Shown here: piece by piece, positions 49,171 to 64,000 of the stretch
Numbering within the stretch: the stretch's first letter is position 1
Layout of the letters: every line of letters begins with the position of its first letter
Source: Solobacterium sp.
GTDB lineage: Bacteria; Bacillota_I; Bacilli_A; Erysipelotrichales; Erysipelotrichaceae
NCBI GenBank assembly: GCA_017510405.1
Contig: JAFWNG010000021.1
Span: 1-64,000, forward strand
DNA length: 64,000 nucleotides
Reading direction: 5' to 3'
Notes under the pieces: model-generated
Database searches by the model: none
Told to the model about the DNA's origin: nothing
The model's input: the letters and a program-made list of their open reading frames with translations, nothing else
Program-made: the position numbers and the translations under genes

Positions 49171-50169
49171 ATGGGAACAGGAAGTTACACAGAATTATCC
49201 CATCACCCGCCGTCCGGAATACCCGTTCCGGATGATACGGCATCTACTCTCACATTTCGACAGGTCACGGAAATGTGTCTTGAATCGAAAAAAGACACAT
49301 TGAAGCGATCCACATATAATCAGTATTGGAATCAGTGCAACAATCATCTCTTAAATGAGATCGGCGACGAGATCTTCGCAGATCTTACAGAAGAACGTCT
49401 CAACAATCTTCTGAAAACGAAGCTTCAGGAAGGCTATCAGTTCTCTACCGTCATGAATCTCAGGACCATCCTGATGATGATCCTGAGGTACGCTATGCAG
49501 AACCACATACCTACAAACGTCACCGGTCCGCTGTTTACACCGCGATACAGGGCAAAAGAGATGCAGGTATTTACCCGCTGGGAACAGAAGCAGATCGAAG
49601 ACCTGCTCTTCACCCGCAAGGATGACTACATACTTGCCGTATTCCTGTCTATGTACTGCGGACTTCGCATTGGTGAAGTATGTGCCCTTCAGTGGAAGGA
49701 CATACACTTCCGAAATGGTACCCTGTCTGTAACCAAGACACTGTGCCGCATCCAGGATAACGGCACGACGTCCAAAAAGACGTACGTTGCCTCAGTACTC
49801 CCGAAGACACACAGTTCCATACGCACCATACCGATTCCAACATTCCTGATGCCGCTGCTTCGGCAGCATCGAAAAAAAGATACTGATTATGTGATAACCG
49901 GCACTGAATGCAGTATGGAACCACGTACCTGCCTCAGACGCTTCAAGACGATCTTAAAGCACGCCAAAGTATCCAACTATTCGTTTCACGCCCTGCGGCA
50001 CACCTTTGCGACCCGCTGCGTAGAGACCGGCATGGACACCAAATCCCTGAGTGAGATCCTCGGTCATTCCACCGTGAAAATCACTCTGGACCGCTATGTT
50101 CATCCTTCCATGGATTTCAAGCGTGCACAGATCAATCGTTTGAAAAAAGTTACAAAACTTGACGTCTGA
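49171..50169 (+). CDS. Tyrosine recombinase/phage-type integrase
   Basis: A 332-residue site-specific recombinase. Residues 25-125 form the SAM-like core-binding domain (TFRQVTEMCLESKKDTLKRST), and the catalytic domain carries Arg166 (CGLRIGE), His273/Arg276 (HALRHTF), His299 (LGHS) and Tyr309 (TLDRYVH), so it looks active. No excisionase, relaxase or phage gene accompanies it. It stands at the border of a region with different gene content, which suggests it mobilised, or still inverts or moves, the mirrored clusters downstream. Confidence 0.9.
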   Translation: MGTGSYTELSHHPPSGIPVPDDTASTLTFRQVTEMCLESKKDTLKRSTYNQYWNQCNNHLLNEIGDEIFADLTEERLNNLLKTKLQEGYQFSTVMNLRTILMMILRYAMQNHIPTNVTGPLFTPRYRAKEMQVFTRWEQKQIEDLLFTRKDDYILAVFLSMYCGLRIGEVCALQWKDIHFRNGTLSVTKTLCRIQDNGTTSKKTYVASVLPKTHSSIRTIPIPTFLMPLLRQHRKKDTDYVITGTECSMEPRTCLRRFKTILKHAKVSNYSFHALRHTFATRCVETGMDTKSLSEILGHSTVKITLDRYVHPSMDFKRAQINRLKKVTKLDV

Positions 50170-50271
50170 GGCAGGCAAAACCACTCACCTATACCCTCTT
50201 CGGTATGCACCAAATTCGATCTTTTAATAAAACATTAAAGGACATAACCGAAGTAAAACGGAGGGGGAACC

Positions 50272-53200
50272 ATGAAAGAAACAAAAAAAGTCTTTTCATT
50301 CCTGATGGCTGTCATGATGATCCTCGGTATGATCACGACACCAGTACAGGCAAGAGGGGGCGAATCCACTGACGGCTGGGGCTGGCCTTACGGCGGCTGG
50401 TGGTCCTGGTGGGGATGGCAGCAGCCTGAACCGGAGCCGGAACCAGAACCGGTAGTTGAGGAAGAACCTGTAGAGGAGGAAGAAGAGGAAGAAACTCCTG
50501 CAGAAACACCGGCAGAAGAAGCACCGGAGGAGAATTCCGAAGTTGCTCCTGCTGAACAGGCTGAAGAACCGGTTCAGTACGCAGCAGGAACTCTGCCATA
50601 CTCTGATGACAAGTATCAGGTATACGTAGACTGTGATGAAACAGCAGAAATTCCGGTAGGAACTCTGCCGGTAGTGACAGAATTCGCAGAAGGCAGTGAA
50701 GAATATAATGCAGCAAAAGCAGCAGTACTCGGTGATTCCGATAATACAACAGGATTCGCTGCCTTTGATATTTCGCTGTATAACGGTGATACGCTCGATG
50801 AACCGAATCCGAACGGCAATCCTGTAACAGTCACAGTAGAACTGAAGAACCTGCCGGCTGAAGCAATCGCAGCAGCTGACACACTGGAACTCTCTCATAT
50901 CAATGAAGTATCCGGTGAAACAGAAGTTGTCGCGACAGCAGAAGAGATCACCGTTACAGGTGAAGACAGCGCGACAGCAGAGTTCACAGTAGACAGTTTC
51001 TCCACATTCACTCTGACATGGGGAGAGAATGATGAGAACGAAGCAACCATCATCTGGGGATACATGAATGGCGACACATTCACAGAACTGGAAGAAGGAT
51101 CCACAGTAACTCTGGATCAGACAGCGGCTACAGTAAGCATTCTCAACAGTTTTGAAGGATATTTATATCAAGGCGCTGTTTATGTTGCGTCTGGCGGAGA
51201 AATGTCAGAAGGTGTTAGTATCCAGTCCACTCTGAACAAAACAGACGATGGATGGAGCTGTGTTGCCTATAATTCAGAAGATGGCAGTGAAACAGTTACA
51301 CCTATCGCAGATGGAAGCGTTATCTATGTAAACTATTTAGCACCTGGTGAGTATACGCCGCCTACTTCAGGCGCAGGGGAAGCTACAGTTCCGAGCCCGA
51401 CAACGGAAAAGACGGTTACCGATAACGGAGACGGCACATATACAATTCAGTTGGATATCACAGGCGCTTTAGTAACTGAAGACAATTCACATTATGTTAA
51501 TGTGCTGGTTATTCTTGACGCTACCCGCAGTATGAATGGTGCTAAGTGGACCAATGCTAAAGCAGCCATGAAGACATTGATCGAAACAATGACGGAAGGC
51601 GATAACGCTGCGAATGCCGGCAAAATCGATTTTGCTCTTGTAACGTTTGGCCGTTCAGCTACAGTTACACAGAACTGGACGAAGGATAATGCTTCATTTA
51701 AGACTACATGTGCTGGTATAAATATGGTTTCCACATCAGGAACGAACTGGGAAGCTGGTATGCGCGGCGGTCTGTATGGAGTTCTGAATAATCTTCCGGA
51801 CGATGATCCAACATATGTCATCTTCCTGACTGACGGTGATCCGAACGTATATTATTCAAGCGGAGCTGATACGAACTATACCAATACCGGCACTACAAAT
51901 GGTTATAGTCAAAACGCAAATACCTCAGCAAACCATTCTGCGGATGAAGCGAAAGCAATTGCTGCAAAGACAAAACTGTACGGTATCTACTGTGGTGACA
52001 GCGGTTCAACGCCTAGCGGTGAATCATACAATCGTCTTGTCGGTGTTATCACCGGAAATGGACAAGGCGGTGTTAAAACGATTGCAGCTAATGCAGATAC
52101 TATTGAATCTGAGTTCAAAGCAATTGCTGAGACGGCATTAAAAGATGTTGGCGCCTACAATGCTTCCGTTGATGACGGTGTTCCGAGCCTTGCAGGTATC
52201 AGTGCTAACGTTACCGGTCAAGCCGGCGGTTATGAGTATTATAAGAAAGAAAAGAATGAGAGTGAGTTCTCTGAATGGGCTGATGCTCCTGGTGCTGTTT
52301 ACAGCAATGACAATGGTGTCACCTGGGATCTGAGCAAGGTAGGAACACTTCCTGAAGAAACTACATATCGTATTAAGTTTACAGTTTGGCCAAGCCAGGA
52401 CGCGTATGACCTCATTGCCGACCTTAACAATGGACTTAAAGATTATGATGATCTGACAGATAAAGAAAAAGCGGCTGTTACAGGCAACAAGGATGATGGT
52501 TATACACTGGTAACAAATACTCACTTAAACACAAATTATACGGTTAACGGAAAACAGTATTCAGACCAGCCGGATGATCTCCAGTACAAAGCTATGCCGC
52601 TTCCGACGAAGATGATCAAAGTTAAGAAGAACTGGCCGCAAAACCTGCTCGATGGTTACGGTGCTGCAACATACAGAGACGAAAACGGTGTAGAACAGAC
52701 TGCCACAGAGATCACATTAAACCTGCAGAAAGACGGTGCTAATTATCTGCCGGTTACAGTGAAGGCTGATGAAAATTGGGTAAAAGACGATGTCTACGTT
52801 TCCTGCGGTAACATGTCTATCAATGCCGCTGGTGAAGTTACTATTCACGAACCAGGACATGATTATCAGATCGTTGAACCGGCTGCCTTCTCCTATTACT
52901 GGGATCTGATCTCTGATGTATATCATCCGATGGTCATCAACGGAAAAGCTGAAATGCTGATTCTGAATGAAAAACTGACAGCTGAGGATGTTGATAACGA
53001 GACAGTATTTGAAATTAACGGTAAGTTCTACGAAAAATCTGATGCAGATTCAAATACTCTTGAAGCTGACAACTATCGTCGTTCCAACCTGAACCTGACA
53101 AAGGTCGTTTCTACCGAAGGCGGCCAGAATGACTACTTCACATATACTGCGAAAGTTACCGATGCTCAGTCTTCAGATGGATATGTTTGGTTCTCTGCAT

Positions 53201-54273
53201 GGGATCCGGAAGCCGGTGCGACAGTTAAGGCTACTGACTGGGTAGTCAGCGGTGCAACTGCAGAAGACGGCAATACAGGTTACTGGTATGCACAGAATGG
53301 TGCAACTATTACCTTAAAGATCAAAGCAGGATGGAACGTACGTTTCCTGAACCTGTACCATGGATCCACATTCAGCTTCGAAGAAACTGATATGCCGCAG
53401 TTCTATGAGTTTGAGAACGCTGAAGCAGATAAAAAGTATGATTTCGAGGATACAACCATTACTGATGCGGACTGGTATAAAATTGAAGACAAAGTTGTTT
53501 CCGGAAACATTATTGAACCGAATAACAGCTACACAGTTACTTATACCAATAAGTATGAAGCCTTCTATGTATATCATTCCGGTACTGCTGTTGATGGAAA
53601 TCTTGAAGTAATCGGTATGCCTGCAGCAGGAGGTACATATGATCTGACTCAGAATCTGACTCCTAACACGCTCTATGGCGGTTACTATCTGGATTATGCA
53701 GGCAAGGGCGATTATAAAGATGACGGCATCAAGGGAACAACTGGTGTCAAATATACAGGTATGAATTACGAGTGGACCGGAGCACAGACCGTTAAGGGAA
53801 CTGAGATCACTCCTGTTGCCGGTGAAACATATTACATCAAGGAAGTCCCGACATACTATCTGAGAAACTATCATCAGATCAACTACGTGAAGAGCAGCGG
53901 TAAGCTGATGGCGCTTTATCTGATCTCTGCTGTTGATGATCTGAATTATCAGGAAACAGGCTTCTATCTCCAGACAGATGATAAGAATGAGGCAACAAAA
54001 GTATTGTCTTCTCTTAAGTTCAAGAACTACGCGACAAATAAGACAGTTACATTAAAGGCAAACTCAGTATTCAGATCATTAGGAATCACTGAAGAAGGAG
54101 AATACCTGACATATTACGATGCGACGAGTGATACTGATTACTTCAAAGTCGGTAAGTTCACAGTTGAGCCGTATTGGATCACACCGGACAGAATTACTGT
54201 GAGAGGTATCAGTAAGCGTACAATCACGATCTCATCCATGACTAAATCAGGTATTAGCAAATCAGATGACTAA
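50272..54273 (+). CDS. Large secreted VWA-domain surface protein (copy 1)
   Basis: A 1333-residue exported protein. A signal peptide (about 1-28, ending PVQA) is followed by a Trp/Gly stretch (GWGWPYGGWWSWWGW) and an acidic Pro/Glu-rich region to about 100. A VWA domain starts near 410 with the MIDAS Asp416-x-Thr-x-Ser420 and Asp521 in FLTDGDPN. After it come several beta-sandwich, Cna-B/SpaA-like modules (for example KVKKNWPQNL and TVTYTNKYEAFYVYH). The end (SGISKSDD) has no LPxTG motif or membrane anchor. The copy at 61483-64000 is a clear homologue. GGAGGGGG precedes the ATG. A surface adhesin is likely; anchoring is unexplained. Confidence 0.85.
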   Translation: MKETKKVFSFLMAVMMILGMITTPVQARGGESTDGWGWPYGGWWSWWGWQQPEPEPEPEPVVEEEPVEEEEEEETPAETPAEEAPEENSEVAPAEQAEEPVQYAAGTLPYSDDKYQVYVDCDETAEIPVGTLPVVTEFAEGSEEYNAAKAAVLGDSDNTTGFAAFDISLYNGDTLDEPNPNGNPVTVTVELKNLPAEAIAAADTLELSHINEVSGETEVVATAEEITVTGEDSATAEFTVDSFSTFTLTWGENDENEATIIWGYMNGDTFTELEEGSTVTLDQTAATVSILNSFEGYLYQGAVYVASGGEMSEGVSIQSTLNKTDDGWSCVAYNSEDGSETVTPIADGSVIYVNYLAPGEYTPPTSGAGEATVPSPTTEKTVTDNGDGTYTIQLDITGALVTEDNSHYVNVLVILDATRSMNGAKWTNAKAAMKTLIETMTEGDNAANAGKIDFALVTFGRSATVTQNWTKDNASFKTTCAGINMVSTSGTNWEAGMRGGLYGVLNNLPDDDPTYVIFLTDGDPNVYYSSGADTNYTNTGTTNGYSQNANTSANHSADEAKAIAAKTKLYGIYCGDSGSTPSGESYNRLVGVITGNGQGGVKTIAANADTIESEFKAIAETALKDVGAYNASVDDGVPSLAGISANVTGQAGGYEYYKKEKNESEFSEWADAPGAVYSNDNGVTWDLSKVGTLPEETTYRIKFTVWPSQDAYDLIADLNNGLKDYDDLTDKEKAAVTGNKDDGYTLVTNTHLNTNYTVNGKQYSDQPDDLQYKAMPLPTKMIKVKKNWPQNLLDGYGAATYRDENGVEQTATEITLNLQKDGANYLPVTVKADENWVKDDVYVSCGNMSINAAGEVTIHEPGHDYQIVEPAAFSYYWDLISDVYHPMVINGKAEMLILNEKLTAEDVDNETVFEINGKFYEKSDADSNTLEADNYRRSNLNLTKVVSTEGGQNDYFTYTAKVTDAQSSDGYVWFSAWDPEAGATVKATDWVVSGATAEDGNTGYWYAQNGATITLKIKAGWNVRFLNLYHGSTFSFEETDMPQFYEFENAEADKKYDFEDTTITDADWYKIEDKVVSGNIIEPNNSYTVTYTNKYEAFYVYHSGTAVDGNLEVIGMPAAGGTYDLTQNLTPNTLYGGYYLDYAGKGDYKDDGIKGTTGVKYTGMNYEWTGAQTVKGTEITPVAGETYYIKEVPTYYLRNYHQINYVKSSGKLMALYLISAVDDLNYQETGFYLQTDDKNEATKVLSSLKFKNYATNKTVTLKANSVFRSLGITEEGEYLTYYDATSDTDYFKVGKFTVEPYWITPDRITVRGISKRTITISSMTKSGISKSDD

Positions 54274-54290
54274 GTTGAGAGGTGAATAAA

Positions 54291-54536
54291 ATGGCAAAAA
54301 GAAAATATATGAGTCCCGTGTTATTCACACTGGATGACGACGGCGAAGAAATTATCAGTTTCGGTGGTTCTCAGGGCACATCTGGATATGATAGTATGTT
54401 CACTTTTGAGGACGATGGACTGGAAGGTTTGTGCGGGGATTATGACGACGTTGAGCTTGCGGAGATGGCTGGCGACGATCAGTACATTACCTGGGATGAA
54501 TACTATGCTTATTTAGAGCGTCACCCAGAACCGTAA
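54291..54536 (+). CDS. Acidic 81-residue peptide, candidate RiPP precursor (copy 1)
   Basis: The ATG at 54291, with GAGAGG upstream, opens MAKRKYMSPVLFTLDDDG, which holds the YxxPxL motif used by many lasso and related leaders to bind PqqD-type recognition proteins. The rest is strongly acidic with one cysteine (GLCGDYDDVE) and ends YLERHPEP. It starts 17 bases after the VWA gene and is followed by a hairpin, then kinase and PqqD genes, the layout of RiPP precursors. The counterpart at 61226-61474 shares the basic start, the xxP-hydrophobic motif, one cysteine and a terminal PxP. Substrate role is inferred. Confidence 0.65.
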   Translation: MAKRKYMSPVLFTLDDDGEEIISFGGSQGTSGYDSMFTFEDDGLEGLCGDYDDVELAEMAGDDQYITWDEYYAYLERHPEP

Positions 54537-54558
54537 TATAGTTTGATTAATTTGAACA

Positions 54559-54600
54559 GAATTGCGTGAGATTCAAGATTCTCACGCAATTCTTCTGTTT
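54559..54600 (+). terminator. Terminator/attenuator between precursor and kinase (copy 1)
   Basis: GAATTGCGTGAG pairs perfectly with CTCACGCAATTC around a 10-base loop, followed by TTCTGTTTTG. It lies 22 bases past the peptide stop and 36 before the kinase ATG. Partial termination here would give more peptide than enzyme message. The same arrangement recurs at 61173-61209. Confidence 0.78.
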
Positions 54601-54635
54601 TGATGATCTCTATACTTTTGAACAATGGAATTAAT

Positions 54636-55364
54636 ATGTATACATTAAAACTTGGCAGCTGCAGTATTACGCTCTCATTTTTGTATCCGAAAACGCATTT
54701 ATTGTTTGATGACCTGAATCAGACAGATACCATCGTTTTTCCTGATATCTATCTTGATCCGGATTATCTGCTGCGCAACAGATGGCTTGTGGATGGAGAA
54801 GTTCCTGAAGAAACGCTTGAATTCCATTGTCTGATGCTTGCATGTGGTAATTACATCCTTCAATATGATCACGCTCTGTTTCATGGTGCGTGCTTTCTCT
54901 GGAAAGACAAAGCATGGATCTTTACAGCTCCCAGCGGCACCGGAAAAACGACACAGCTGCGCAACTGGATCAGAATGTGGCGTAAAGAGATAAAGATACT
55001 CAACGGTGACAAGCCTGTCATAGAGTGCAGGAAGGATGGGAGCGTCATCGCCTCTTCTTCACCCTGGAAAGGAAAAGAGAATATAGGTAAACCAGGGCTG
55101 TCTGCTCCTCTGGGCGGCATTATTCTTCTATCTCAGGGAAAGACAAATAAGATCAGCAGAATGACAGCCCAGGATAGCGTCATGCCCTTGATCACAGAGT
55201 TTGTCGCCATGCCAGAAACGGATGAGCAGCTGATCCATCAGGGTAACATTCTGAATAAAATGCTGGATGTTACACCTGTCTGGAAACTGGTGAATACTGG
55301 TGATAAGGAATCGGCTATTCTTACGAAAAAGATACTGGAAGAGTATCTGGAGAATGTGTCATGA
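54636..55364 (+). CDS. HPr-kinase-like ATPase (copy 1)
   Basis: A 242-residue protein related to the C-terminal domain of HPr kinase, as in the serine kinases of some lasso-peptide clusters. The P-loop is TAPSGTGKTTQ; the following LNGDKPVIE replaces the HprK acidic motif, and SSSPWKGKENIG with APLGGIILLSQ completes the family pattern. The start is the ATG at 54636 because it aligns with copy 2, although its ribosome binding site is weak. It ends in an ATGA overlap with the first PqqD gene. It probably phosphorylates a Ser/Thr of a peptide or protein bound by PqqD. Confidence 0.8.
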   Translation: MYTLKLGSCSITLSFLYPKTHLLFDDLNQTDTIVFPDIYLDPDYLLRNRWLVDGEVPEETLEFHCLMLACGNYILQYDHALFHGACFLWKDKAWIFTAPSGTGKTTQLRNWIRMWRKEIKILNGDKPVIECRKDGSVIASSSPWKGKENIGKPGLSAPLGGIILLSQGKTNKISRMTAQDSVMPLITEFVAMPETDEQLIHQGNILNKMLDVTPVWKLVNTGDKESAILTKKILEEYLENVS

Positions 55365-55636
55365 ACTATAAAGCAAGAGAAGGTATCGTTCTTCTTGAGA
55401 TACAGGGAGTATTCATTCTCGCAGCCACTGCAGAAGCGAGAGAACACTGCAGATTTGTCAGGAAGATCAATGAGACCGGTGCGTTCATATGGAAACAGAT
55501 CTCGAAAGCAATGTCTGTCAGGGAGATCGAAGACGCAGTGAGGAACCAGTTCAGTATCGATGATGAAATCAATATAAAGACAGATATCGAGAACTATATC
55601 TCCTGTCTTATTGAACAGGGCTATCTCATATCCTGA
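55361..55636 (+). CDS. PqqD-family protein (RiPP recognition element), first of copy 1
   Basis: A 91-residue PqqD-like winged-helix protein: GIVLLEIQGVFILAATAEAREHC (three strands), INETGAFIWKQISKAMSVREIEDAV (helices) and a C-terminal pair with YISCLIEQGYL. Such proteins bind leader peptides and hand them to tailoring enzymes. It overlaps the kinase gene by 4 bases, so they are made together. Confidence 0.87.
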   Translation: MNYKAREGIVLLEIQGVFILAATAEAREHCRFVRKINETGAFIWKQISKAMSVREIEDAVRNQFSIDDEINIKTDIENYISCLIEQGYLIS

Positions 55637-55647
55637 GGATCTATATC

Positions 55648-55929
55648 ATGAATCAGTATTATGAAACGTTACCAGGTATCGTATTGACTTTATCCTGTCA
55701 AGAATACTATCTGATAACGTCTAAAGAACGAATGAGGATCAGTGAAGCAGGTGCTTTTTACTGGTCTTGTATACAGAATGGCATGTCCGTTGAGGAGATG
55801 CACAAAGCAGTGATGGAAGAATTCGAGATATCTGATTCGGAAGAAGCTGAAAAGGATCTGCAGTTCTTTGTAAAACTGCTTCTTGTAAAGAACCTGATCA
55901 GAGAAAGCAGGAAAAAGGTAGATGAATAA
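55648..55929 (+). CDS. Second PqqD-family protein of copy 1
   Basis: A 93-residue PqqD-like protein: LPGIVLTLSCQEYYLITSKE, ISEAGAFYWSCIQNGMSVEEMHKAV and KDLQFFVKLLLVKNLI follow the same layout as its neighbour but with low identity. Copy 2 has only one PqqD, so the second either recognises another substrate or serves the fused glycosyltransferase. It overlaps the next gene by 8 bases. Confidence 0.82.
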   Translation: MNQYYETLPGIVLTLSCQEYYLITSKERMRISEAGAFYWSCIQNGMSVEEMHKAVMEEFEISDSEEAEKDLQFFVKLLLVKNLIRESRKKVDE

Positions 55930-58030
55930 AGCAGAAGAACAGTTTCTCAGAGTATTCCGATGTGCTTTGAATGATCTGCCGCCTGATTCTGTAAAAGACA
56001 TATCCGACAATGAGTGGCCGGCAGTTCTGCGGTTGGCAGATATTCACCGTGTATTCCCGATGATCTTCGAATATTGCTGTGCGCTGCAGGAAAGCAGTCA
56101 TTCGGAAAACAAGGTCTTTCAGAAAAGAAAGCTGAAAGCGGTCAAACTGACCTGTGATCAGGCACAGATGACGGCAGAGTTTCTTGCTTTGTACCGATTC
56201 CTGCTGCGCAAGGGACTTGCGCCTGTCGTGATGAAAGGGATAATCTGCAGGAATCTCTATCCGGAACCTGAGAGAAGATCCTCTTCCGATGAAGACCTTC
56301 TGATCCGACCGGAACAGTTTCATCAGTATCAGGAGGCTTTTCGGGAATATGGTCTCAAACCGGCACTGGAGAACACCGATGAAGAGAAAGCCCATGAAGT
56401 AGCGTACTGCAACAGTAAAGTCTACATAGAACTGCATAAGAGTCCCTTCCCACCGGGATCAGAGGTATTCGGTGACCTGAATCACTATTTTAAAGACGCA
56501 GACGCACATAAAATCACTGAGATGATATACTCGGTACCTGTACGCACAATGGAATATACCGAGCATCTGTTCTATCAGATCTGCCATGCATATAAACATT
56601 TTCTGAACTGCGGGATCGGTATACGGATCGCCAGTGATATCACCTTGTATTCGATCACCTATTACGACAGGATCGACTGGGAACGTATTCTGGAACAGTG
56701 CCGTGAAGTCAAAGCGTATGAGTTTATCCGGGCATTGTATAAGATCGGAAACGTATATCTGTTTCCGGAGACCTTCCCGCAGGAGCTATCCTTAACATTA
56801 AATCTGAATGATGTGGAAGAAGAGTCGATTCTGGAAGATATATTACAGGGAGGCCTGTACGGCACTTCCAGTGAAGACAGGCTGCACAGCAGTAATATCA
56901 CACTGAACGCAGCGGCGACAGATAAGCGCGGGAAAGAAAAAAACGCGGTAATTTCTGCACTGTTTCCTGCGTTCAGCAGTATGAAACACCGTTATCCTTA
57001 TCTGGAGAAGTATCCGATTCTTCTGCCGTTCACCTGGATCCACAGGCTGTTTTCTTACCTGAAGAACAACCGCTCAGGAAGCGGAAGTGCATCAGAAGCA
57101 ATGCGAATCGGAAATGAACGCGTACTTTTGATGAAGAAGTATCAGATGATTGAAGAAAAAGAAAAAGCCGGATTCTTCAAACGCCTGTATCAGAAATCCC
57201 ATCGATCCGCTTTTGCGCCGGTTTTCAGCGTATTATTCATGATCATAAGCAATATAGAGTACTATTTGCTTAATATTTACTGGTCATTTAAAGGGTACGG
57301 GATGCCTTCTGAGAAAGAACAGAAACTGGTCGCAGATAACGTGACATTCGTGTTCAAATCCTTTGAACGGCAGAAGATGGCTCTTGGATTATGCAAATGC
57401 ATATCCCGCTTTTATCCGGGAGTACAGATCCTCGCTGCAGATGACAGCAGTGTCCCGTTTGAATGCATGTTGGACAATGTACAGGTGATCCATCTGCCAT
57501 TCCGCAGCGGATTGAGCGCAGGCCTCAAAGCGGCACTTGAAGAAGTTAAAACGCCGTATCTGGTCCGTATGGATGACGACGAACTTTTAACGAAACGGTC
57601 CAATATCCACAAAGAACTCGCTTATCTGATGAACCATCCAGAGATCGATCTGATCGGACTGGGATTCACGACAGCGATCCGATGCAGGAACGCAAGGAAA
57701 AGCTTTGATGAGTATTACAAACAGACGATGCCTGCGCAAAGAAATGTGATCCCGCACGGAACAGTACTGGATGACACGCATATCGTATTTGAAAAGACTG
57801 CCAATATATACGTGGCAAGAACAGAAAAGATACGGGAAGTCGGATTTGATGAGAATATCAAAGTAATCGATCATCACGATTTCTTCACCCGAGCACAGGG
57901 AATCATCACTTCTGCCGGAGCACTGGATACGGTGGTGTTTCACAGACACAATCCCTATGACCGTCACTACAACAAATACCGTTCAGATTATCTGGACGAT
58001 CTGATCTATCTGAGAAACAGGAAGAAATAG
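55922..58030 (+). CDS. PF14907-type nucleotidyltransferase fused to a family-2 glycosyltransferase (copy 1)
   Basis: A 702-residue two-domain protein. Residues 1-405 form a nucleotidyltransferase-fold protein (NTP_transf_5): VMKGIICRNLYPEPERRSSSDEDLLI carries the GS-like loop and metal-binding D-x-D. Residues about 455-700 resemble a GT-A glycosyltransferase (NVTFVFKSFERQKMALGLCKCI, IQILAADDSS-like strand, LVRMDDDELLTKRS with D-x-D). In lasso-peptide clusters related nucleotidyltransferases add sugar to a phosphorylated residue. The copy 2 homologue has only the first domain. It overlaps the second PqqD gene by 8 bases and is followed by a small membrane-protein gene. Confidence 0.82.
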   Translation: MNKAEEQFLRVFRCALNDLPPDSVKDISDNEWPAVLRLADIHRVFPMIFEYCCALQESSHSENKVFQKRKLKAVKLTCDQAQMTAEFLALYRFLLRKGLAPVVMKGIICRNLYPEPERRSSSDEDLLIRPEQFHQYQEAFREYGLKPALENTDEEKAHEVAYCNSKVYIELHKSPFPPGSEVFGDLNHYFKDADAHKITEMIYSVPVRTMEYTEHLFYQICHAYKHFLNCGIGIRIASDITLYSITYYDRIDWERILEQCREVKAYEFIRALYKIGNVYLFPETFPQELSLTLNLNDVEEESILEDILQGGLYGTSSEDRLHSSNITLNAAATDKRGKEKNAVISALFPAFSSMKHRYPYLEKYPILLPFTWIHRLFSYLKNNRSGSGSASEAMRIGNERVLLMKKYQMIEEKEKAGFFKRLYQKSHRSAFAPVFSVLFMIISNIEYYLLNIYWSFKGYGMPSEKEQKLVADNVTFVFKSFERQKMALGLCKCISRFYPGVQILAADDSSVPFECMLDNVQVIHLPFRSGLSAGLKAALEEVKTPYLVRMDDDELLTKRSNIHKELAYLMNHPEIDLIGLGFTTAIRCRNARKSFDEYYKQTMPAQRNVIPHGTVLDDTHIVFEKTANIYVARTEKIREVGFDENIKVIDHHDFFTRAQGIITSAGALDTVVFHRHNPYDRHYNKYRSDYLDDLIYLRNRKK

Positions 58031-58040
58031 GAGGTTTCTG

Positions 58041-58250
58041 ATGAAGAGAAGAAGACTTAAGAAATCAGCGCTTATCACGATCATAGCAGCGGTCGTTTTA
58101 CTGGCTGTGATCATTTTTGCATGGCCGAAGAAGAACAATAACGACGGAGCCGCTTCCGGGGAATACACCGGTGAGACGACAGGTGTCATCGAGGACGGCG
58201 GTGATCTTGAGATCCTTGTCCCGGAAGATGAGGAAACATTTGGAGAATAG
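58041..58250 (+). CDS. Small single-TM protein with acidic tail (copy 1)
   Basis: A 69-residue protein: basic start MKRRRLKK, one transmembrane segment (about 10-28), then a short Gly/Asn linker and an acidic end with GVIEDGGDLEILVPEDEETFGE. AGGAGG precedes the ATG. The 65-residue counterpart at 59933-60130 shares RRLKK, AASG, GVIE and (I/L)VPED. Because it is kept in both copies it may anchor or act as a substrate of the modification enzymes. No known family. Confidence 0.72.
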   Translation: MKRRRLKKSALITIIAAVVLLAVIIFAWPKKNNNDGAASGEYTGETTGVIEDGGDLEILVPEDEETFGE

Positions 58251-58301
58251 TATTTGAGTATATTCTGAAAAACACATCTTAGAAACAGGCTGTCTTAAAG
58301 G

Positions 58302-58349
58302 AAAAAAAGTACCCGGATTTGCAGCGTAACAGCTCCAGGTGCTTTTTTT
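58302..58349. terminator. Terminator at the end of copy 1
   Basis: AGTACCCGGA pairs with TCCAGGTGCT (one mismatch, one G-U) and a smaller inner helix; seven A precede and seven T follow, so it could act on both strands. Confidence 0.72.
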
Positions 58350-58367
58350 GCTAATTTCGGATAAACG

Positions 58368-58680
58368 GAACGGCAGTTCCGCTTGAACGGTACACCGTTC
58401 CGCCTCAGCGGAACACACTAAATCGTTACAAGCAAAGACTATGCCGAGAAAATTCTTGCCAATGAGTATCCCTCAAATAAACTGAAAGCTGTTGCGCCTA
58501 AAGGCTTGAAAAAGCCTTTATATTCGTCTTTATGGGAGCTTGAGGGATAGAGGCTCGTTGGCAAGAAGGAATTGGAATAGCTTTGCTGTTAATTGTTCCG
58601 TTAATCCGGAATTGTGTTCCGATCTTCCGGAAACTCTGTACCGTTCTTATCGGAATCAACGTACCGTTGAAGCGGATTTT
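58368..58680. repeat. Long imperfect palindrome at the axis between the two mirrored clusters
   Basis: Matching arms flank a centre near 58509. Pairs seen include AAAGGCTT/AAGCCTTT (58500-58507, 58512-58519), CCCTCAA/TTGAGGG (58470-58476, 58540-58546), TTCTTGCCAA/TTGGCAAGAA (58453-58462, 58558-58567), AGCAAAG/CTTTGCT (58431-58437, 58581-58587), CGGAACAC/GTGTTCCG (58409-58416, 58614-58621) and GAACGGTACA/TGTACCGTTC (58385-58394, 58637-58646). The total arm length is about 150 bases with small gaps. No gene is seen in 58251-58711. Confidence 0.75.
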
Positions 58681-58711
58681 GCATTTTTTAATAGATGTGA
58701 CAATAATGTCG

Positions 58712-59923
58712 TTATTCCTGAATAATGCCGTATTCCTTCAGCATCCTGATCCTTTCTCTGCCGATTTCCAGAGTCTTTGCCGCATCTACATTACTGCTGC
58801 TCTGGAAAGCATAGCGATAAATACGCTGTACCCAGGCAGCCGGCAATAGATAAGGATTCTTCTTCAGATAAGGATATGACTTTTTCATGTACCCTAATGA
58901 AGGGAACACTGACTTCATAATGCCGTTTGTTTTCCGGCCTTCTTTATCGGCAGAAATGGCTTTCAGAGTCATTGTTGAACTGTGGAGCCGGTTCTCATCA
59001 TTTGCTCCGTAAACACCGCCGGAAAGAATGTCCAGCAATAACGGTTCCTCATTTACGGATTTCGCCGTAAAGGATATGTTAACAGACTGCATACCAAGGT
59101 ATTTCTCACAAATCAGCAGAATCGCCTGCACAAACTGATCCAGATGATACTGTTTACAGACTTCCGTTACTCTATCCCAGTCTATCTGCTCTCTGTAACT
59201 ATCAATAAACAGAGCAATATCACATATCTGCCGTATGCCGATACCGCTGTAAATCACATGCTTATACGCGTGTGCCAGCATGTAGAGGAAATGATCCGTA
59301 TATCCCAGAGTACGGAAAGCTGTTCCATAGACTAAGATAGTGGCAGGCTCTTCTGGTCTGTCAAAGATCTCGTTCAGATATCCGTAGGACTGATCGTAAG
59401 GAGGAAATAAATGCTTATGTACCTCTATATATAGATGGGAGTCAGAATTCTGATATGAGATTTCATATTCTTTTTCCAGTGAAATATCCGGATCTGTCAA
59501 ATGAAAACCATGGTCAATCAAAAAGGAATGACAGGCATAGATTTCATGCGGCCTGATCAATAAGTCTTCATCCGCAGAAGACCGTAATTCCGGTTCCGGA
59601 TAGAGGTTTCTGCAGATTATTCCCTTTAAAACCAGAGGGGAAAGACCATGTTCAAGCATTTTCTCATACAGCAGGAGAAAAGAAGCGGATTTCTCCGCTT
59701 GCTGAATTGTACGCTTCACCGCTCTGTTTTTGAATTTCTCCGCCAATTCCGGATATGTTTGATACACACCATTCAATACAAGCGGAAGAATCATGTGACC
59801 TGAAGACATATATATGATTTTGTTTATATATTCTTTCAGGAACTCTTCGGATTCTCTGATCGGTCTGTTATGTATGATCTGACACAGCAGACTCAAAAGA
59901 AGTTTCTGATCAACGGCAAGCAT
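58712..59923 (-). CDS. PF14907-type nucleotidyltransferase (copy 2)
   Basis: A 403-residue nucleotidyltransferase-fold protein homologous over its whole length to the first domain of the fused protein at 55922. The same active-site block is present: VLKGIICRNLYPEPELRSSADEDLLI. It also shares GILSGGVYGANDENRLHSSTMTL-like and SYPYLKKNPYLLPAAWVQRIYRY blocks. The glycosyltransferase domain is absent and the protein ends soon after RIRMLKEYGI. Last gene of the minus-strand copy, 9 bases downstream of the small TM protein. Confidence 0.8.
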   Translation of the reverse strand: MLAVDQKLLLSLLCQIIHNRPIRESEEFLKEYINKIIYMSSGHMILPLVLNGVYQTYPELAEKFKNRAVKRTIQQAEKSASFLLLYEKMLEHGLSPLVLKGIICRNLYPEPELRSSADEDLLIRPHEIYACHSFLIDHGFHLTDPDISLEKEYEISYQNSDSHLYIEVHKHLFPPYDQSYGYLNEIFDRPEEPATILVYGTAFRTLGYTDHFLYMLAHAYKHVIYSGIGIRQICDIALFIDSYREQIDWDRVTEVCKQYHLDQFVQAILLICEKYLGMQSVNISFTAKSVNEEPLLLDILSGGVYGANDENRLHSSTMTLKAISADKEGRKTNGIMKSVFPSLGYMKKSYPYLKKNPYLLPAAWVQRIYRYAFQSSSNVDAAKTLEIGRERIRMLKEYGIIQE

Positions 59924-59932
59924 TTGATCTGC

Positions 59933-60130
59933 TTAGAATCCTTCCGATTCCATATCTTCCGGTACAATAATTTCTATAACTCCCTGGTTCTCAATAGCAG
60001 ATCCGCTGCTTCCCGAAGCGGCTTTTTCCTCTTTATTGTTGAATAGTAATTTGCTTCCGGCAAATACGCAAAGCAGAATTACCGCAATCAGGACGATCCA
60101 GACCTGTTTTTTTAGTCTTCTGTGTTTCAT
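59933..60130 (-). CDS. Small single-TM protein with acidic tail (copy 2)
   Basis: A 65-residue protein: MKHRRLKK, one transmembrane segment (about 10-28), AASGSSGSA linker and GVIEIIVPEDMESEGF. It matches the protein at 58041-58250. Its ATG shares a base with the PqqD stop (TAATG), so the two are translationally coupled. In this copy it precedes the nucleotidyltransferase gene instead of following it. Confidence 0.72.
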   Translation of the reverse strand: MKHRRLKKQVWIVLIAVILLCVFAGSKLLFNNKEEKAASGSSGSAIENQGVIEIIVPEDMESEGF

Positions 60131-60417
60131 TATTCAGTATCCTCCTCATACAGCAAATATCCATTCACATGAAGTATTTCCAAGTAATCACTAATGGTTT
60201 TCTCAATATTGATATCAGCGGGAATGTCAAAACTCTGTTTCAGCTCCTCCGCAATTTCAGGAATCGACTGATTATCTGTCAGGCATTCCCATATAAGAGC
60301 TCCGGTATCATTCAGTATCTTTGTATACGGGCAAAACTGTCGTGCTTCATATGCAGCTACAAGAATGTATTCGCCGCATATTTTTGTCAGGACGATGCCG
60401 GGTCTGACTTTTATCAT
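60130..60417 (-). CDS. PqqD-family protein (RiPP recognition element), copy 2
   Basis: A 95-residue PqqD-like protein: RPGIVLTKICGEYILVAAYEAR, LNDTGALIWECLTDNQSIPEIAEEL and YLEILHVNGYLLYEEDTE. It is closest in layout to the first PqqD of copy 1 (R-x-GIVL...ILVAA-x-EAR). It overlaps the kinase gene by 4 bases (ATGA), as in copy 1. Confidence 0.86.
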   Translation of the reverse strand: MIKVRPGIVLTKICGEYILVAAYEARQFCPYTKILNDTGALIWECLTDNQSIPEIAEELKQSFDIPADINIEKTISDYLEILHVNGYLLYEEDTE

Positions 60418-61166
60418 TCGTTAACCTCCAGAGCCAAATAATCCTCGATTGTCTGACGCAGAACCATTGTGGATTCCACAGTGCCGGTGTTTGAAAATAC
60501 CCAGATTGGCACCTCAGCAACGATCCGCTGAATCATATCGGAAAGAATCCTGATCTCCTCTTTAGATTCCGGAATAGCCATAAACTGGCTAAACAGAGTA
60601 AGAATACTTTCTTTTTTATCCGCAAACCGTATAGAATTGCTTTTATCCTGATTCAGGATAATTATTCCGCCAAGTTCTGCAGACACAGCATTACCCATTT
60701 TTTCTTTTCCGTTCCATGGAGAGGGGCAAACCTGTATACTTCTGCCGTGATCCATAGCCAGCACCGGCATATCCCCGGAGATTACAATGATCTCATTCGG
60801 ATGAAGTTGTACCCAGTTCATGTACTGGGTTGTTTTTCCTGTGCCGCTGGGAGCGGTCAGCAGCCATGCTTTTCCTCGAAAAATAAACGAAACAGCGTGA
60901 AAGATACTGCATTGGTAGCGGAGCAGATGTCCAGCCGTATATGGAATCAGTTCTTTATACTCGATATATCCTTTTTTCGTACCTTCTGGATATAGAGCGG
61001 CGCGTCCCGCAATTATTTCTTCCGGCAGCAGAATCTCCTCACTGGTTTCTTCACATTGCTGCGCAAAACTCCCAAAATAACGATATGTGTACGGAATACG
61101 GAACCTGTACACAACAGGATAGCCTGCATATATTGCCTTATATGTATTCGCTAATTCTCTTGTCAT
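60414..61166 (-). CDS. HPr-kinase-like ATPase (copy 2)
   Basis: A 250-residue homologue of the kinase at 54636. P-loop TAPSGTGKTTQYMNW, then VISGDMPVLAM, CPSPWNGKEKMG and AELGGIIILNQDKSN; the order and spacing equal those of copy 1. It is cytosolic. The gene follows the peptide gene after a strong hairpin and is coupled to PqqD. Confidence 0.8.
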   Translation of the reverse strand: MTRELANTYKAIYAGYPVVYRFRIPYTYRYFGSFAQQCEETSEEILLPEEIIAGRAALYPEGTKKGYIEYKELIPYTAGHLLRYQCSIFHAVSFIFRGKAWLLTAPSGTGKTTQYMNWVQLHPNEIIVISGDMPVLAMDHGRSIQVCPSPWNGKEKMGNAVSAELGGIIILNQDKSNSIRFADKKESILTLFSQFMAIPESKEEIRILSDMIQRIVAEVPIWVFSNTGTVESTMVLRQTIEDYLALEVNE

Positions 61167-61172
61167 CTTCTG

Positions 61173-61209
61173 TAAAAAAGTAATTGCGCAGACTAACTGC
61201 GCAATTACT
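61173..61209 (-). terminator. Terminator/attenuator between precursor and kinase (copy 2)
   Basis: On the minus strand AGTAATTGCGCAG pairs perfectly with CTGCGCAATTACT (13 bp, 5-base loop), followed by six T, 17 bases past the peptide stop and 7 bases before the kinase ATG. It mirrors 54559-54600. Confidence 0.88.
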
Positions 61210-61225
61210 CCACGACATTTAGTAA

Positions 61226-61474
61226 TCAGGGCTGTGGTTTTTCGTCGAATTCGATCAGATCATACCAACCTTCACCGCTCATGTATTCGACATAATCATT
61301 CCAATCAGCTTCAGTTGCAGCTGAATAATCAACTCCGTTATCCATGCACCAGTCCATGAAGGAAGGCCACCACTGTTCCTCACCACCCTGACCGGATCCA
61401 GGTCCTTCAACATCGCCAGGTCCTAGTGAAATTCCATCGAAGAATATAATGGGATTATTCCAATTCTTTTTCAT
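61226..61474 (-). CDS. Acidic 82-residue peptide, candidate RiPP precursor (copy 2)
   Basis: The product begins MKKNWNNPIIFFDG, a WxxPxI variant of the YxxPxL leader motif, followed by a Gly/Pro-rich region, Trp-rich segment with a single cysteine (WWPSFMDWCMDNG) and the end FDEKPQP. It is strongly acidic (about 17 Asp/Glu). AGGAGG precedes the ATG, 8 bases after the VWA gene stop. Comparison with the copy 1 peptide: similar length, N-terminal motif, one Cys, terminal PxP, but otherwise diverged, as precursors often are. Confidence 0.65.
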   Translation of the reverse strand: MKKNWNNPIIFFDGISLGPGDVEGPGSGQGGEEQWWPSFMDWCMDNGVDYSAATEADWNDYVEYMSGEGWYDLIEFDEKPQP

Positions 61475-61482
61475 GATTCCTC

Positions 61483-64000
61483 CTAGTCTTCAATCTCAGT
61501 ATCAGTGCTCTTCAGGCCGGTATATACTAATCCATTGCTGTATGTCATCGTGCGTTCATGTGTACCATGGACTTCGATTCCATCCTTAGTCTGCCAGTAC
61601 TGACGTACTACAGTTGTCTTTCCGAGATAACTGTTAACTTCTGCGTATCCCAGATAGCCATCAAGTACACCTTTGGATTTAAATACCTTGCCTGCTGTAA
61701 GAGTGACAGTAGAAGTTCCGTTCGATGCCTTAACATTCATAGCTTCACAGACGATAGCCGGCTTGTTGTCAGTCTGTACTGTGAACCATGCTTTCTGATA
61801 GTTCAGGTCATCGAGATCCAGAATAGACCACATGGAGCCGATCTTCTTGTTTGATTTGTAATATGTGAAATGGGTATACGGACGAAGATATCCGGTAGGT
61901 ACTTCTTTCAGATAATAGGTTTCAAACGCAGCAGGTTCCATGGCGGTACCGATCGTGTCATATCCATCAGCGTATTTCCATGCGGCTTTATTGCTTTCCT
62001 GGATATACTCATAGGAATAAGCTTTACCATCTGTATCGAAATCTTTGCTGTCATCGCTGTAGTCAAGTGCTGCAGAATCATAACCTTCACTCTTTCCTGC
62101 GTAATCGCTGTAATAGCCGCCGTACAGGGTATCAGGATATGTTTCGGCATAGATATCAAATGTACGTTTTTCGTTATTTACAGTGATACGATCATCTGTC
62201 AGGAAGATTCTTTCAACTTCATTATTTGAAGAATGATATACATAGAAGAATCCGAGATACTGGTTCGTATATTCGACAGTATAATCAGTATTTGTCTGAT
62301 TGATCGTGCCGGTAACGACTTCACCGTCAACAGCTGCACCATTATCGGTTTCATCATCCTCGGTTGTTACGATCGGATATCCATCAGCAGGTGTATTTTT
62401 AGCACTATAAAGTGTTTCAGTATTCTTTGCCGAATCAAATATGTATCCATCCGGGACATTGATTTCTTCAATGGAATATGTTGATGTTGTTTCAAGATTC
62501 AGGAAACGAATGTTCCATCCAGCAGCGATCTTTACTGTGAACTCTGTTCCGCTGGCCACTCTATAATAAGTATCGTTGCCAACTACAACTGGCTCAGCGG
62601 TAGTTTCAAGATCATCTCTATACGGTACAGCTCCACCATATGTATTTGCAAAACTTCTGCAGGAGAACATGATATCATTTCCTGTTACAGGCTGTGTAAT
62701 CGTGACTTTATACTCAAACATCGTATCAATTGGTGCTTCATTGCCGGTAACGACTTTGGTCAGGTTCAGCCAGCTGACACGTTCATTAATAGCAGCTAAA
62801 GTTGTACTCTCTTCATCCAGTTTGTAATACTTAGTCACTGTTTCCCCATCAACTGTTTCTGTGACGCTGAAACCACTTGGATCTTCCGTATCTGACTCAA
62901 TGAACATCTTCATTGTTCCATCAACGATCATCGGATGATAAACAGGTGAATTGATTTCCCAGTATTCTGTCTTATCATTCTGCTCATCTTTGCGTTCTTC
63001 AATAACGTAGTAATCATGACCAGTTTCCAGAATCTCTCCGTGAGCTATCATACCGACAGAAATATAGATATCTTCTACCTTCCAATCGTTATCAGAATTC
63101 ACTTCAAGCGGGAGATAAGGTTCACCATTTTTAGTGAGAATGAGTTTCAGCCCATCAATGTCATCTTCTGTTCTGCTGTCCAGGAAGTTATGCCAGATTT
63201 TTTCGACCGAGATCGTTTCTGTCGGCAGCGGCATTGCTTCTTCGCTGTAGTTGATCGGATCGCGGTAATCTGTGCCGTTATATGAGTAAGAAGTAAAGAG
63301 ATGTGTATTTGTCAGAAGTGTATAGCCAGATGTTTTATCCCCGGTAACACCAGCCTTTTCAGCCTCGGAGATTACAATGCCGGATTCCACAGCTTCTTCT
63401 TCAGACAACGCCGGATCAGGATTCGAAGCAAGATAATCTGCATAACTGTAGAAACGAATGCCGTTATTCAAATCTGCAATCAGGTCATAAGCTGCCTGTG
63501 TCGGCCATACATCAAACTCAAGAGAATACGTTGTTCCGTTTGCAAGAACACCGGCTTCCGAAAGATCCCAGGTTACACCATTGCTTGTTGAGTAACCTGC
63601 ACTTGGTGCGTCTTCCCATTCTGTTTCTTCGCCGCCTTCCGGTTTGATGTAATACTTAAATCCGCCTGCGGTACCGCTGACAGCAGCACTGACGTTTGCC
63701 AGTGTCGGAATACCGTCGTCGACTGTAACGTTGCTGGAGCCCAGGTCATTAACGATCGTCGATGCAATGTTTTCAAAGGCGTTATTGATTGCGGATGCGC
63801 TTGTACCATCAATGAATGTTCCATTGACTCTGCCCTGATTTCCGTTATAGTTCATCAGATCCTGCAGATGAACCATGTCAGCTGTGCTGCCGCAGAAAAC
63901 GCCATACAGATTGTAACCGCTGAGGGCGGAAACATTAACTGCATTCGGAATTGCAGCATTATAGGCAGCCTGAACAAACTGACCTGTGCCCTGCTGCTGA
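61483..64000 (-). CDS. Large secreted VWA-domain surface protein (copy 2), N terminus outside window
   Basis: About 839 residues are visible and the frame runs off the window edge, so the signal peptide and VWA MIDAS are missing. The first visible residues (YNLYGVFCGSTADM) align with the end of the VWA domain of copy 1 (KLYGIYCGDSG). The rest matches copy 1 module by module: VDDGIPTLANVSAAVSG, SLEFDVWPTQAAYDLIADLNNG, TVEYTNQYLGFFYVYHS, PDTLYGGYYSDYAGK and DLDDLNYQKAWFTVQTDNK. It also ends in acidic residues (STDTEIED) without LPxTG or a membrane anchor. Confidence 0.85.
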   Translation of the reverse strand, partial: QQQGTGQFVQAAYNAAIPNAVNVSALSGYNLYGVFCGSTADMVHLQDLMNYNGNQGRVNGTFIDGTSASAINNAFENIASTIVNDLGSSNVTVDDGIPTLANVSAAVSGTAGGFKYYIKPEGGEETEWEDAPSAGYSTSNGVTWDLSEAGVLANGTTYSLEFDVWPTQAAYDLIADLNNGIRFYSYADYLASNPDPALSEEEAVESGIVISEAEKAGVTGDKTSGYTLLTNTHLFTSYSYNGTDYRDPINYSEEAMPLPTETISVEKIWHNFLDSRTEDDIDGLKLILTKNGEPYLPLEVNSDNDWKVEDIYISVGMIAHGEILETGHDYYVIEERKDEQNDKTEYWEINSPVYHPMIVDGTMKMFIESDTEDPSGFSVTETVDGETVTKYYKLDEESTTLAAINERVSWLNLTKVVTGNEAPIDTMFEYKVTITQPVTGNDIMFSCRSFANTYGGAVPYRDDLETTAEPVVVGNDTYYRVASGTEFTVKIAAGWNIRFLNLETTSTYSIEEINVPDGYIFDSAKNTETLYSAKNTPADGYPIVTTEDDETDNGAAVDGEVVTGTINQTNTDYTVEYTNQYLGFFYVYHSSNNEVERIFLTDDRITVNNEKRTFDIYAETYPDTLYGGYYSDYAGKSEGYDSAALDYSDDSKDFDTDGKAYSYEYIQESNKAAWKYADGYDTIGTAMEPAAFETYYLKEVPTGYLRPYTHFTYYKSNKKIGSMWSILDLDDLNYQKAWFTVQTDNKPAIVCEAMNVKASNGTSTVTLTAGKVFKSKGVLDGYLGYAEVNSYLGKTTVVRQYWQTKDGIEVHGTHERTMTYSNGLVYTGLKSTDTEIED

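Follow-up and report, generated by a model that had tools for sequence, protein, structure and literature searches.

A putative RiPP-type peptide-modification cassette genetically tied to secreted surface proteins of gut and rumen Bacillota

In several families of gut and rumen Bacillota, an enzyme kit of the type used in linear polyphosphorylated peptide (LPP) and paeninodin pathways occurs in a fixed genetic association with a single type of secreted surface protein and with a small, putative membrane tether. The cassette is characterized by its gene set and conserved order, by a conserved C-terminal domain (CTD) of the surface protein whose occurrence depends on the kinase cassette, by the conserved tail of the tether, by a hairpin after the peptide gene, and by a kinase of predicted PEPCK/HprK fold. 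The original prediction, made from the DNA letters alone, paired a peptide-modifying cassette with a secreted protein of VWA type at the cell surface, and this pairing is real and conserved across loci. Our working interpretation, which we hold at roughly even confidence, is that each cassette is a RiPP pathway resembling that of LPP and placed in the service of its own cell-surface protein. This would be a known type of enzyme kit in a new variant, possibly with a new biological role, and because the kit is locked to the surface protein and tether a testable function presents itself, namely RiPP-type modification for cell-surface architecture.

Layout of the two cassettes

The stretch of DNA analysed here (the window) comprises 64,000 nucleotides, positions 1-64000 of a contig from a 3.27 Mb Solobacterium draft genome. 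It contains two convergent cassettes arranged tail to tail, A at 50272-58250 (+) and B at 65661-58712 (-), whose features are collected in Table 1. Read in its own direction, cassette A encodes a VWA protein, the peptide, the kinase, two successive PqqD proteins, a nucleotidyltransferase fused to a GT2 glycosyltransferase and a small membrane protein, while cassette B encodes a VWA protein, the peptide, the kinase, one PqqD protein, the small membrane protein and a nucleotidyltransferase. All of these ORFs are intact and closely packed in both copies, and together with their Pfam matches they confirm that the same six kinds of gene are present twice in mirrored form.

Table 1. Positions of cassette features in the window
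Feature	Position	Strand	Evidence and remarks
Surface protein A, 1333 aa	50272..54273	+	signal peptide, VWA, DUF7604, weak DUF7601, CTD
CTD of protein A	53533..54270	+	model pLDDT 90.5, motif conservation
Acidic peptide A (start probably 54291)	54282..54536	+	leader-like KYMSPVLF; Gly/Ser/Thr segment GGSQGTSGYDS; then C-terminal half
Hairpin A, peptide/kinase gap	54558..54593	+	z -6.2
PEPCK/HprK-fold kinase A	54600..55364	+	predicted fold, kinase tree
PqqD-type RRE A1	55361..55636	+	PF05402 1.5e-9
PqqD-type RRE A2	55648..55929	+	PF05402 4.9e-8
NTP_transf_5 (PF14907) + GT2 glycosyltransferase fusion, 702 aa	55922..58030	+	Pfam
Putative membrane tether A, 69 aa	58041..58250	+	N-terminal TM, conserved C-tail GDLEILVPEDEETFGE
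NTP_transf_5 B, 403 aa	58712..59923	-	Pfam
Putative membrane tether B, 65 aa	59933..60130	-	C-tail GVIEIIVPEDMESEGF
PqqD-type RRE B	60130..60417	-	PF05402 4.1e-9
PEPCK/HprK-fold kinase B	60414..61166	-	BLASTP vs copy A, kinase tree
Hairpin B, peptide/kinase gap	61179..61209	-	z -5.6
Acidic peptide B	61226..61474	-	leader-like KKNWNNPIIFF; segment GPGSGQGG
Surface protein B, 1392 aa	61483..64000, start at contig 65661 beyond window	-	CTD at 61486-62280
Left arm, 83% inverted repeat of VWA gene 5' ends	50220..50525	.	partner near contig 65661 beyond window

The mirrored arrangement had been read as a duplication, and paired copies do exist, but they are not recent ones. Paired enzymes and membrane proteins of A and B share 33-42% identity by BLASTP (~33% for the kinases, 39% for the nucleotidyltransferases), and the kinases fall into different subclades, A clustering with Solobacterium-type loci (support 100/100) and B with loci L030 and L077 (100/99). 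A recent tandem inverted duplication is thereby ruled out, and the two cassettes are old paralogues. DNA likeness between the two VWA genes is limited to their first ~315 bp (83%; RBS and signal peptide). These 5' ends (50220-50525 and contig ~65360-65720) form a 315-bp, 83% inverted repeat flanking a 15.4-kb segment, possibly a trace of past or present inversion, or of 5' gene conversion. A tyrosine recombinase (PF00589) is encoded at 49171-50169 (+), ~100 bp outside the VWA-A gene. In an Rfam search the sole match was a tRNA.

Surface protein, tether and their recurrence with the kinase

Searching with a kinase alignment yielded 79 loci from named organisms, and the genes around the kinases were annotated by HMM. 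The order [large secreted protein]-peptide-kinase-PqqD-(small membrane protein)-nucleotidyltransferase was found in ~50 examined loci, and the ~50 further loci span Erysipelotrichaceae, Oscillospiraceae, Lachnospiraceae and Christensenellaceae. This recurrence is far above chance and thus answers the concern, raised with the original prediction, that the gene association might be random across relatives.

A secreted VWA protein had been described as part of each unit. In the window this is so, with PF13519 above cut-off in both secreted proteins (A, 2e-8; B, 1.9e-6), but across loci VWA is present only sometimes, and other surface proteins carry List-Bact repeats (PF09479) or Ig domains in its place. 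The constant part is instead the CTD, the last ~250-300 residues common to all of these proteins behind variable N-termini. Its motifs (FYVYHS, LYGGYY, YYxKEVP, DDxNYxxxGF and YWxTPDGxxVxG) reach the C-terminus, and it has no Pfam match. An AlphaFold2 model of the CTD is confident and mostly beta (pLDDT 90.5, pTM 0.87). Foldseek returned no match to it at E <= 0.001, and VIA-align gave middling Ig-like matches (best Z 7.7) to the C-terminal Ig-like lobe only; since this may reflect a common arrangement, we claim no kinship for the CTD.

Because the loci had been recruited with kinases from such clusters, CTD and kinase were also searched separately in two sets of genomes. In the window's family (146 genomes sampled), 13 genomes have kinase relatives and 5 have the CTD, all 5 being among the 13 (P 2.5e-6), and all six CTD copies lie directly upstream of a kinase. 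Similarly, in 200 genomes of one Oscillospiraceae family, 39 have kinase relatives and six have the CTD, all within the 39 (P 4e-5); it is exactly these six genomes whose kinase scores rank highest (E <= 1.9e-68, the next being 5e-47). Counting the handle-searched genomes and the family sample, a same-strand kinase follows within 3 kb downstream of 41 of the 47 CTD copies, the six exceptions being two that lie close to contig ends, two additional copies in tandem before one cassette (G147), one permuted cassette (G150:C12, locus L053) and one lone copy. CTD occurrence therefore depends on the kinase cassette. The permuted cassette reads kinase-PqqD-tether-NTP-CTD protein-peptide-ABC exporter.

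The small membrane protein, 63-190 aa long, carries a TM segment or a lipobox-like site (20 of 40) at its N-terminus, continues through a variable acidic or Pro-rich linker and ends in a conserved C-terminal tail, for example GDIEIIIPTGQASGGL or GELEISVPEDEETFGE. The tail is rich in Ile/Val at positions -14, -12 and -10, acidic at -8, and has Gly at -2 in 30 of 40 cases. With tails scored by column counts, such a protein was recognised in 32 of the 40 loci with enough downstream sequence, leaving eight with no recognisable one, which counts against our working interpretation; a stricter regular expression matched 27 of 50. From these sequence features the small TM protein appears to be a membrane tether with a conserved C-tail. 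CTD proteins have neither LPXTG nor a hydrophobic or TM C-terminal tail (a single regular-expression match, in L075, is not a sorting signal), although the window's genome encodes two sortases. A secreted CTD protein lacking an anchor, encoded next to a constant tail held at the membrane, suggests contact between the two.

This pairing has a bearing on a somewhat unlikely alternative in which the system serves surface-protein anchoring: the CTD would be a sorting domain, the tether's C-tail would be joined to it or complete its beta-sandwich, and the peptide would be a chaperone or lock only. Such a scheme is consistent with a constant CTD behind variable N-termini, with the missing LPXTG, with a membrane tether whose constant C-terminal tail is strand-like, and with locus L049 (G147 C87), where three tandem CTD surface proteins precede one kinase cassette; it is at odds with a cassette that holds no catalytic ligase or transpeptidase.

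Modifying enzymes and their candidate substrate

The identity of the kinase was not settled by sequence: it has no significant Pfam match and P-loop matches below threshold only, hhalign against the genome's own HprK aligned the P-loop alone, and a PDB profile search returned P-loop proteins. It was settled by the predicted fold, the model (pLDDT 94.7) being of PEPCK/HprK type (Foldseek E 7e-6) and comparing with PEPCK at Z 13.9 (231 residues, 3.9 A) and with HprK (3tqf) at Z 11.7 (128 residues, 3.1 A), which bears out the HprK-like kinase named in the original prediction. An IQ-TREE phylogeny places all 48 CTD-linked kinases inside one 100/99-supported group of 65 rows, set apart from SpI-linked and nearly all rSAM-linked kinases. 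L052, L085 and L100 each encode a single protein (~400 aa) that fuses kinase and PqqD. L080 (Bacteroidales UBA4293) has a kinase-PqqD pair with peptides nearby and lies within the CTD-type kinase clade on a Bacteroidota-labelled contig, reflecting either transfer or a binning error. As for the remaining enzymes, PqqD (PF05402) is above cut-off in both cassettes and present in 47 of the 49 CTD-linked loci, and PF14907, matched at 1.1e-37 and 4.3e-47 in the window, is present in 41 of the 49. The PF14907-GT2 fusion of copy A recurs in L048, L050, L070 and L089.

Such enzymes have known activities. The HprK-like kinases PadeK, PsmK and LppK phosphorylate precursor Ser, singly or multiply (PMC9266682, PMC13381572): LppK polyphosphorylates the LPP precursor (Popov et al. 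2026, PMC13381572), and in pseudomycoidin PsmK phosphorylates and PsmN then adds one or two hexoses to the phospho-Ser (PMC9266682). For LppN, no activity was seen in the expression system published for LPP (PMC13381572), which counts against our working interpretation.

The short acidic peptide encoded just before the kinase is the candidate substrate. In 33 of 45 peptides a [Y/F/W/H]xxP motif lies within the first 25 residues, against 8 expected from shuffling, and a YxxP-type motif is what lasso and LPP RREs bind (PMC13381572). About a quarter of the peptides have no YxxP motif, which counts against an LPP-like reading. A Gly-rich Ser/Thr stretch (GxG[ST]/SQ motif) is found in 23 of 36 peptides (2.8 expected from shuffles), and Ser/Thr content peaks 21-25 residues past the aromatic. 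Many peptides end in an EF-hand-, dockerin- or TSP3-like acidic loop with aromatic residues; EF- or TSP3-like loops occur in ~14 of 45 peptides (~2.4 expected from shuffling) and a looser EF-like pattern in 14 of 48 (0.6 expected), statistics that are no more than suggestive. An EF-hand or dockerin reading of the peptide was rejected, Pfam matches being weak only (Dockerin_1 E 0.048) and the loops degenerate in the window's two peptides. A second peptide class, mostly lacking YxxP (L054, L057, L072, L075, L088, L091, L104, L106, L110, L111 and L119), has a [YG]xx[LIV][ST]xxxY-like N-terminus, in some cases with a DxDxDxxPD loop and a C-terminal SQ, and possibly carries a different RRE recognition motif.

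In 37 of 38 loci the gap from the stop codon of the peptide gene to the start of the kinase gene holds a strong hairpin (mean folding z -5.2, against -0.28 in control coding stretches), with compensatory changes at 10/10 consensus pairs. It parts the surface-protein and peptide genes from the enzyme genes, a placement that would suit an attenuator or stabiliser, and it lends support to the view that the peptide is a more abundantly produced product.

In our working interpretation the PqqD-type RRE would bind the N-terminal [Y/W/F]xxP region of the peptide, the kinase would phosphorylate Ser/Thr, most likely in the Gly/Ser/Thr segment (GxG[ST]xQ or SQGTSG), and the PF14907 enzyme, sometimes GT2-fused, would put a sugar or nucleotide on that peptide phosphate. 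Phosphorylation with sugar or nucleotide transfer is the natural prediction for the enzyme set, which to this extent supports the phosphorylation and glycosylation originally suggested. It is very improbable that kinase and transferase act instead on the CTD protein or the tether in the cytoplasm, or that the peptide is an internal regulator, the short ORF then being no RiPP precursor. A quarter of the peptides without YxxP and no leader peptidase would suit such a role, whereas YxxP together with PqqD in most loci, and the hairpin after the peptide gene, would not; moreover, Sec substrates leave the cell unfolded, so an RRE-guided kinase would rarely modify them.

Export, neighbouring genes and comparison with known systems

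Beyond the window, upstream of VWA-B, lie a LytR-CpsA-Psr (LCP) gene at contig 66319-67854 and, beside cassette B, an ABC exporter (ABC_membrane + ABC_tran) at contig 67870-69654, followed by polysaccharide genes. The original prediction had reported no exporter, which holds within the window but not past its edge; an ABC transporter is also near 18 of 24 fully flanked loci, with none seen at L049, L054, L071, L075, L076 and L104. The transporter also borders capsule genes; both this and the six loci without it count against our working interpretation. As we envisage it, the adjacent MsbA-like ABC transporter would carry the modified peptide out, and outside the cell the peptide would be the partner (ligand, linker or lock) of the CTD on a Sec-secreted giant adhesin, with the small TM protein or lipoprotein that bears the conserved C-tail anchoring the complex in the membrane. 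No non-enzymatic partner is more constant than the CTD protein, whose gene lies with that of the peptide on one side of the hairpin, so the peptide, once modified, most likely works at the cell surface together with the CTD protein and the tether. More tentatively, we picture a new bacterial surface-assembly system in which the tether's constant C-tail captures the CTD and the phosphorylated, sugar- or nucleotide-modified peptide serves as structural linker or lock.

The polysaccharide genes raise the quite unlikely alternative of a modified peptide that joins capsule or exopolysaccharide to the adhesin, the phospho-peptide with its sugar being a primer or attachment point. It could be argued from the LCP gene near cassette B and in L030, L034 and L113, from the CpsB, Wzz and BY-kinase genes that often come after the ABC gene, and from the GT2 fusions. 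However, capsule genes are absent from view at some loci, and published LPP and lasso clusters also lie within capsule loci with no linkage shown (PMC13381572).

Cassette-type loci were likewise inspected for the other genes of RiPP pathways, which the original prediction had listed as absent. No lasso macrolactam cyclase was found in 49 loci by SGGxDS scan (an L093 match is an unrelated protein), and no B2 leader protease (PF13471) was above cut-off genome-wide, weak matches falling on other contigs. A motif scan detected a SpI (SipW-like) leader peptidase at none of the 49 CTD-linked loci (one false match was inspected) and at 11 of the 29 other kinase loci (P 4e-6); the lack of a leader peptidase at the former counts against our working interpretation. 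Radical SAM genes were absent from the window cassettes and from 47 of the 49 CTD loci; the one in L031 is part of a separate downstream PqqD-rSAM-peptide-kinase group and that in L108 lies past an opposite-strand gene. These absences, now extended from the window to homologous clusters for the cyclase and SpI peptidase, rule out a lasso peptide pathway, which would need cyclase and B2.

They also touch on the possibility, in our view unlikely, of a free LPP-type RiPP, antimicrobial or signal, for which the adhesin acts as immunity protein, receptor or delivery platform. The enzyme kit and exporter do match LPP and phospho-lasso pathways and the distribution is patchy, but the most constant of the non-enzymatic parts is the surface protein, whose gene immediately precedes the peptide gene and shares its side of the hairpin, and neither an immunity gene nor a leader peptidase was found. 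The roles of paeninodin and LPP peptides themselves are stated as unknown in the 2026 paper (PMC13381572).

Two further groups of loci were seen. In L038, L043 (G121), L042 and L044, related loci with radical SAM, PqqD, HprK-like kinase and YxxP-type peptides form a parallel rSAM version; G121 additionally encodes giant surface proteins, though these lack the CTD, and a TM protein that resembles the tether and begins KKRRRLKK. In L117, L120, L121 and L124-L126, kinase relatives occur with an S26/S24-type peptidase, PqqD and mostly NTP_transf_5 and ABC genes; these resemble published LPP clusters and are also found in Bacteroidales.

Under the interpretation of an LPP-like pathway harnessed to a surface protein, the conserved cassette suggests an undescribed route to build or decorate the cell surface in gut and rumen bacteria, for which the CTD and tether tail are usable search handles. 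To our knowledge, a RiPP pathway that builds or anchors a surface protein would be the first such use. A search of the open-licence PMC literature returned no paper tying such kinases or PqqD to VWA proteins.

Several known systems invite comparison. With LPP RiPPs the cassette has in common a discrete RRE, HprK-like kinase, NTP transferase and MsbA-like exporter, as well as a YxxP-type leader, no cyclase and a frequent capsule-locus setting (PMC13381572). LPP, however, also includes a leader peptidase of the SipW-like SpI type, and its precursors carry the motif YxxPxVLxHQxIxFETxxS, of which our peptides have [Y/W/F]xxP only, the HQ and FET parts being absent. Because these two defining features are lacking we do not file the cassette as LPP; in addition, CTD loci carry the CTD surface protein and C-tailed membrane tether, and their kinases form a separate clade. 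Phosphorylated or glycosylated lasso peptide pathways (paeninodin, pseudomycoidin; PMC9266682) use the same PqqD (B1), HprK-like kinase and nucleotidyltransferase, whereas here there is no macrolactam synthetase or B2 protease and the peptide is longer, its C-terminal half often Ca-binding-like.

On the surface-protein side, Gram-positive VWA/Cna-B-type adhesins and sortase pilins likewise combine a signal peptide, VWA, DUF7601/DUF7604 and repeat domains, and the proteins described here differ in having no LPXTG, a CTD with no Pfam match and a genetic tie to a peptide-modifying cassette. In C-terminal sorting-domain systems such as exosortase/PEP-CTERM and type IX CTD, variable surface proteins share a constant C-terminal handle that is served by dedicated helpers. 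Although its components are unrelated to theirs and neither a transpeptidase nor a secretion channel was found here, the present cassette resembles these systems in joining a constant C-terminal handle on variable surface proteins to a dedicated helper set.
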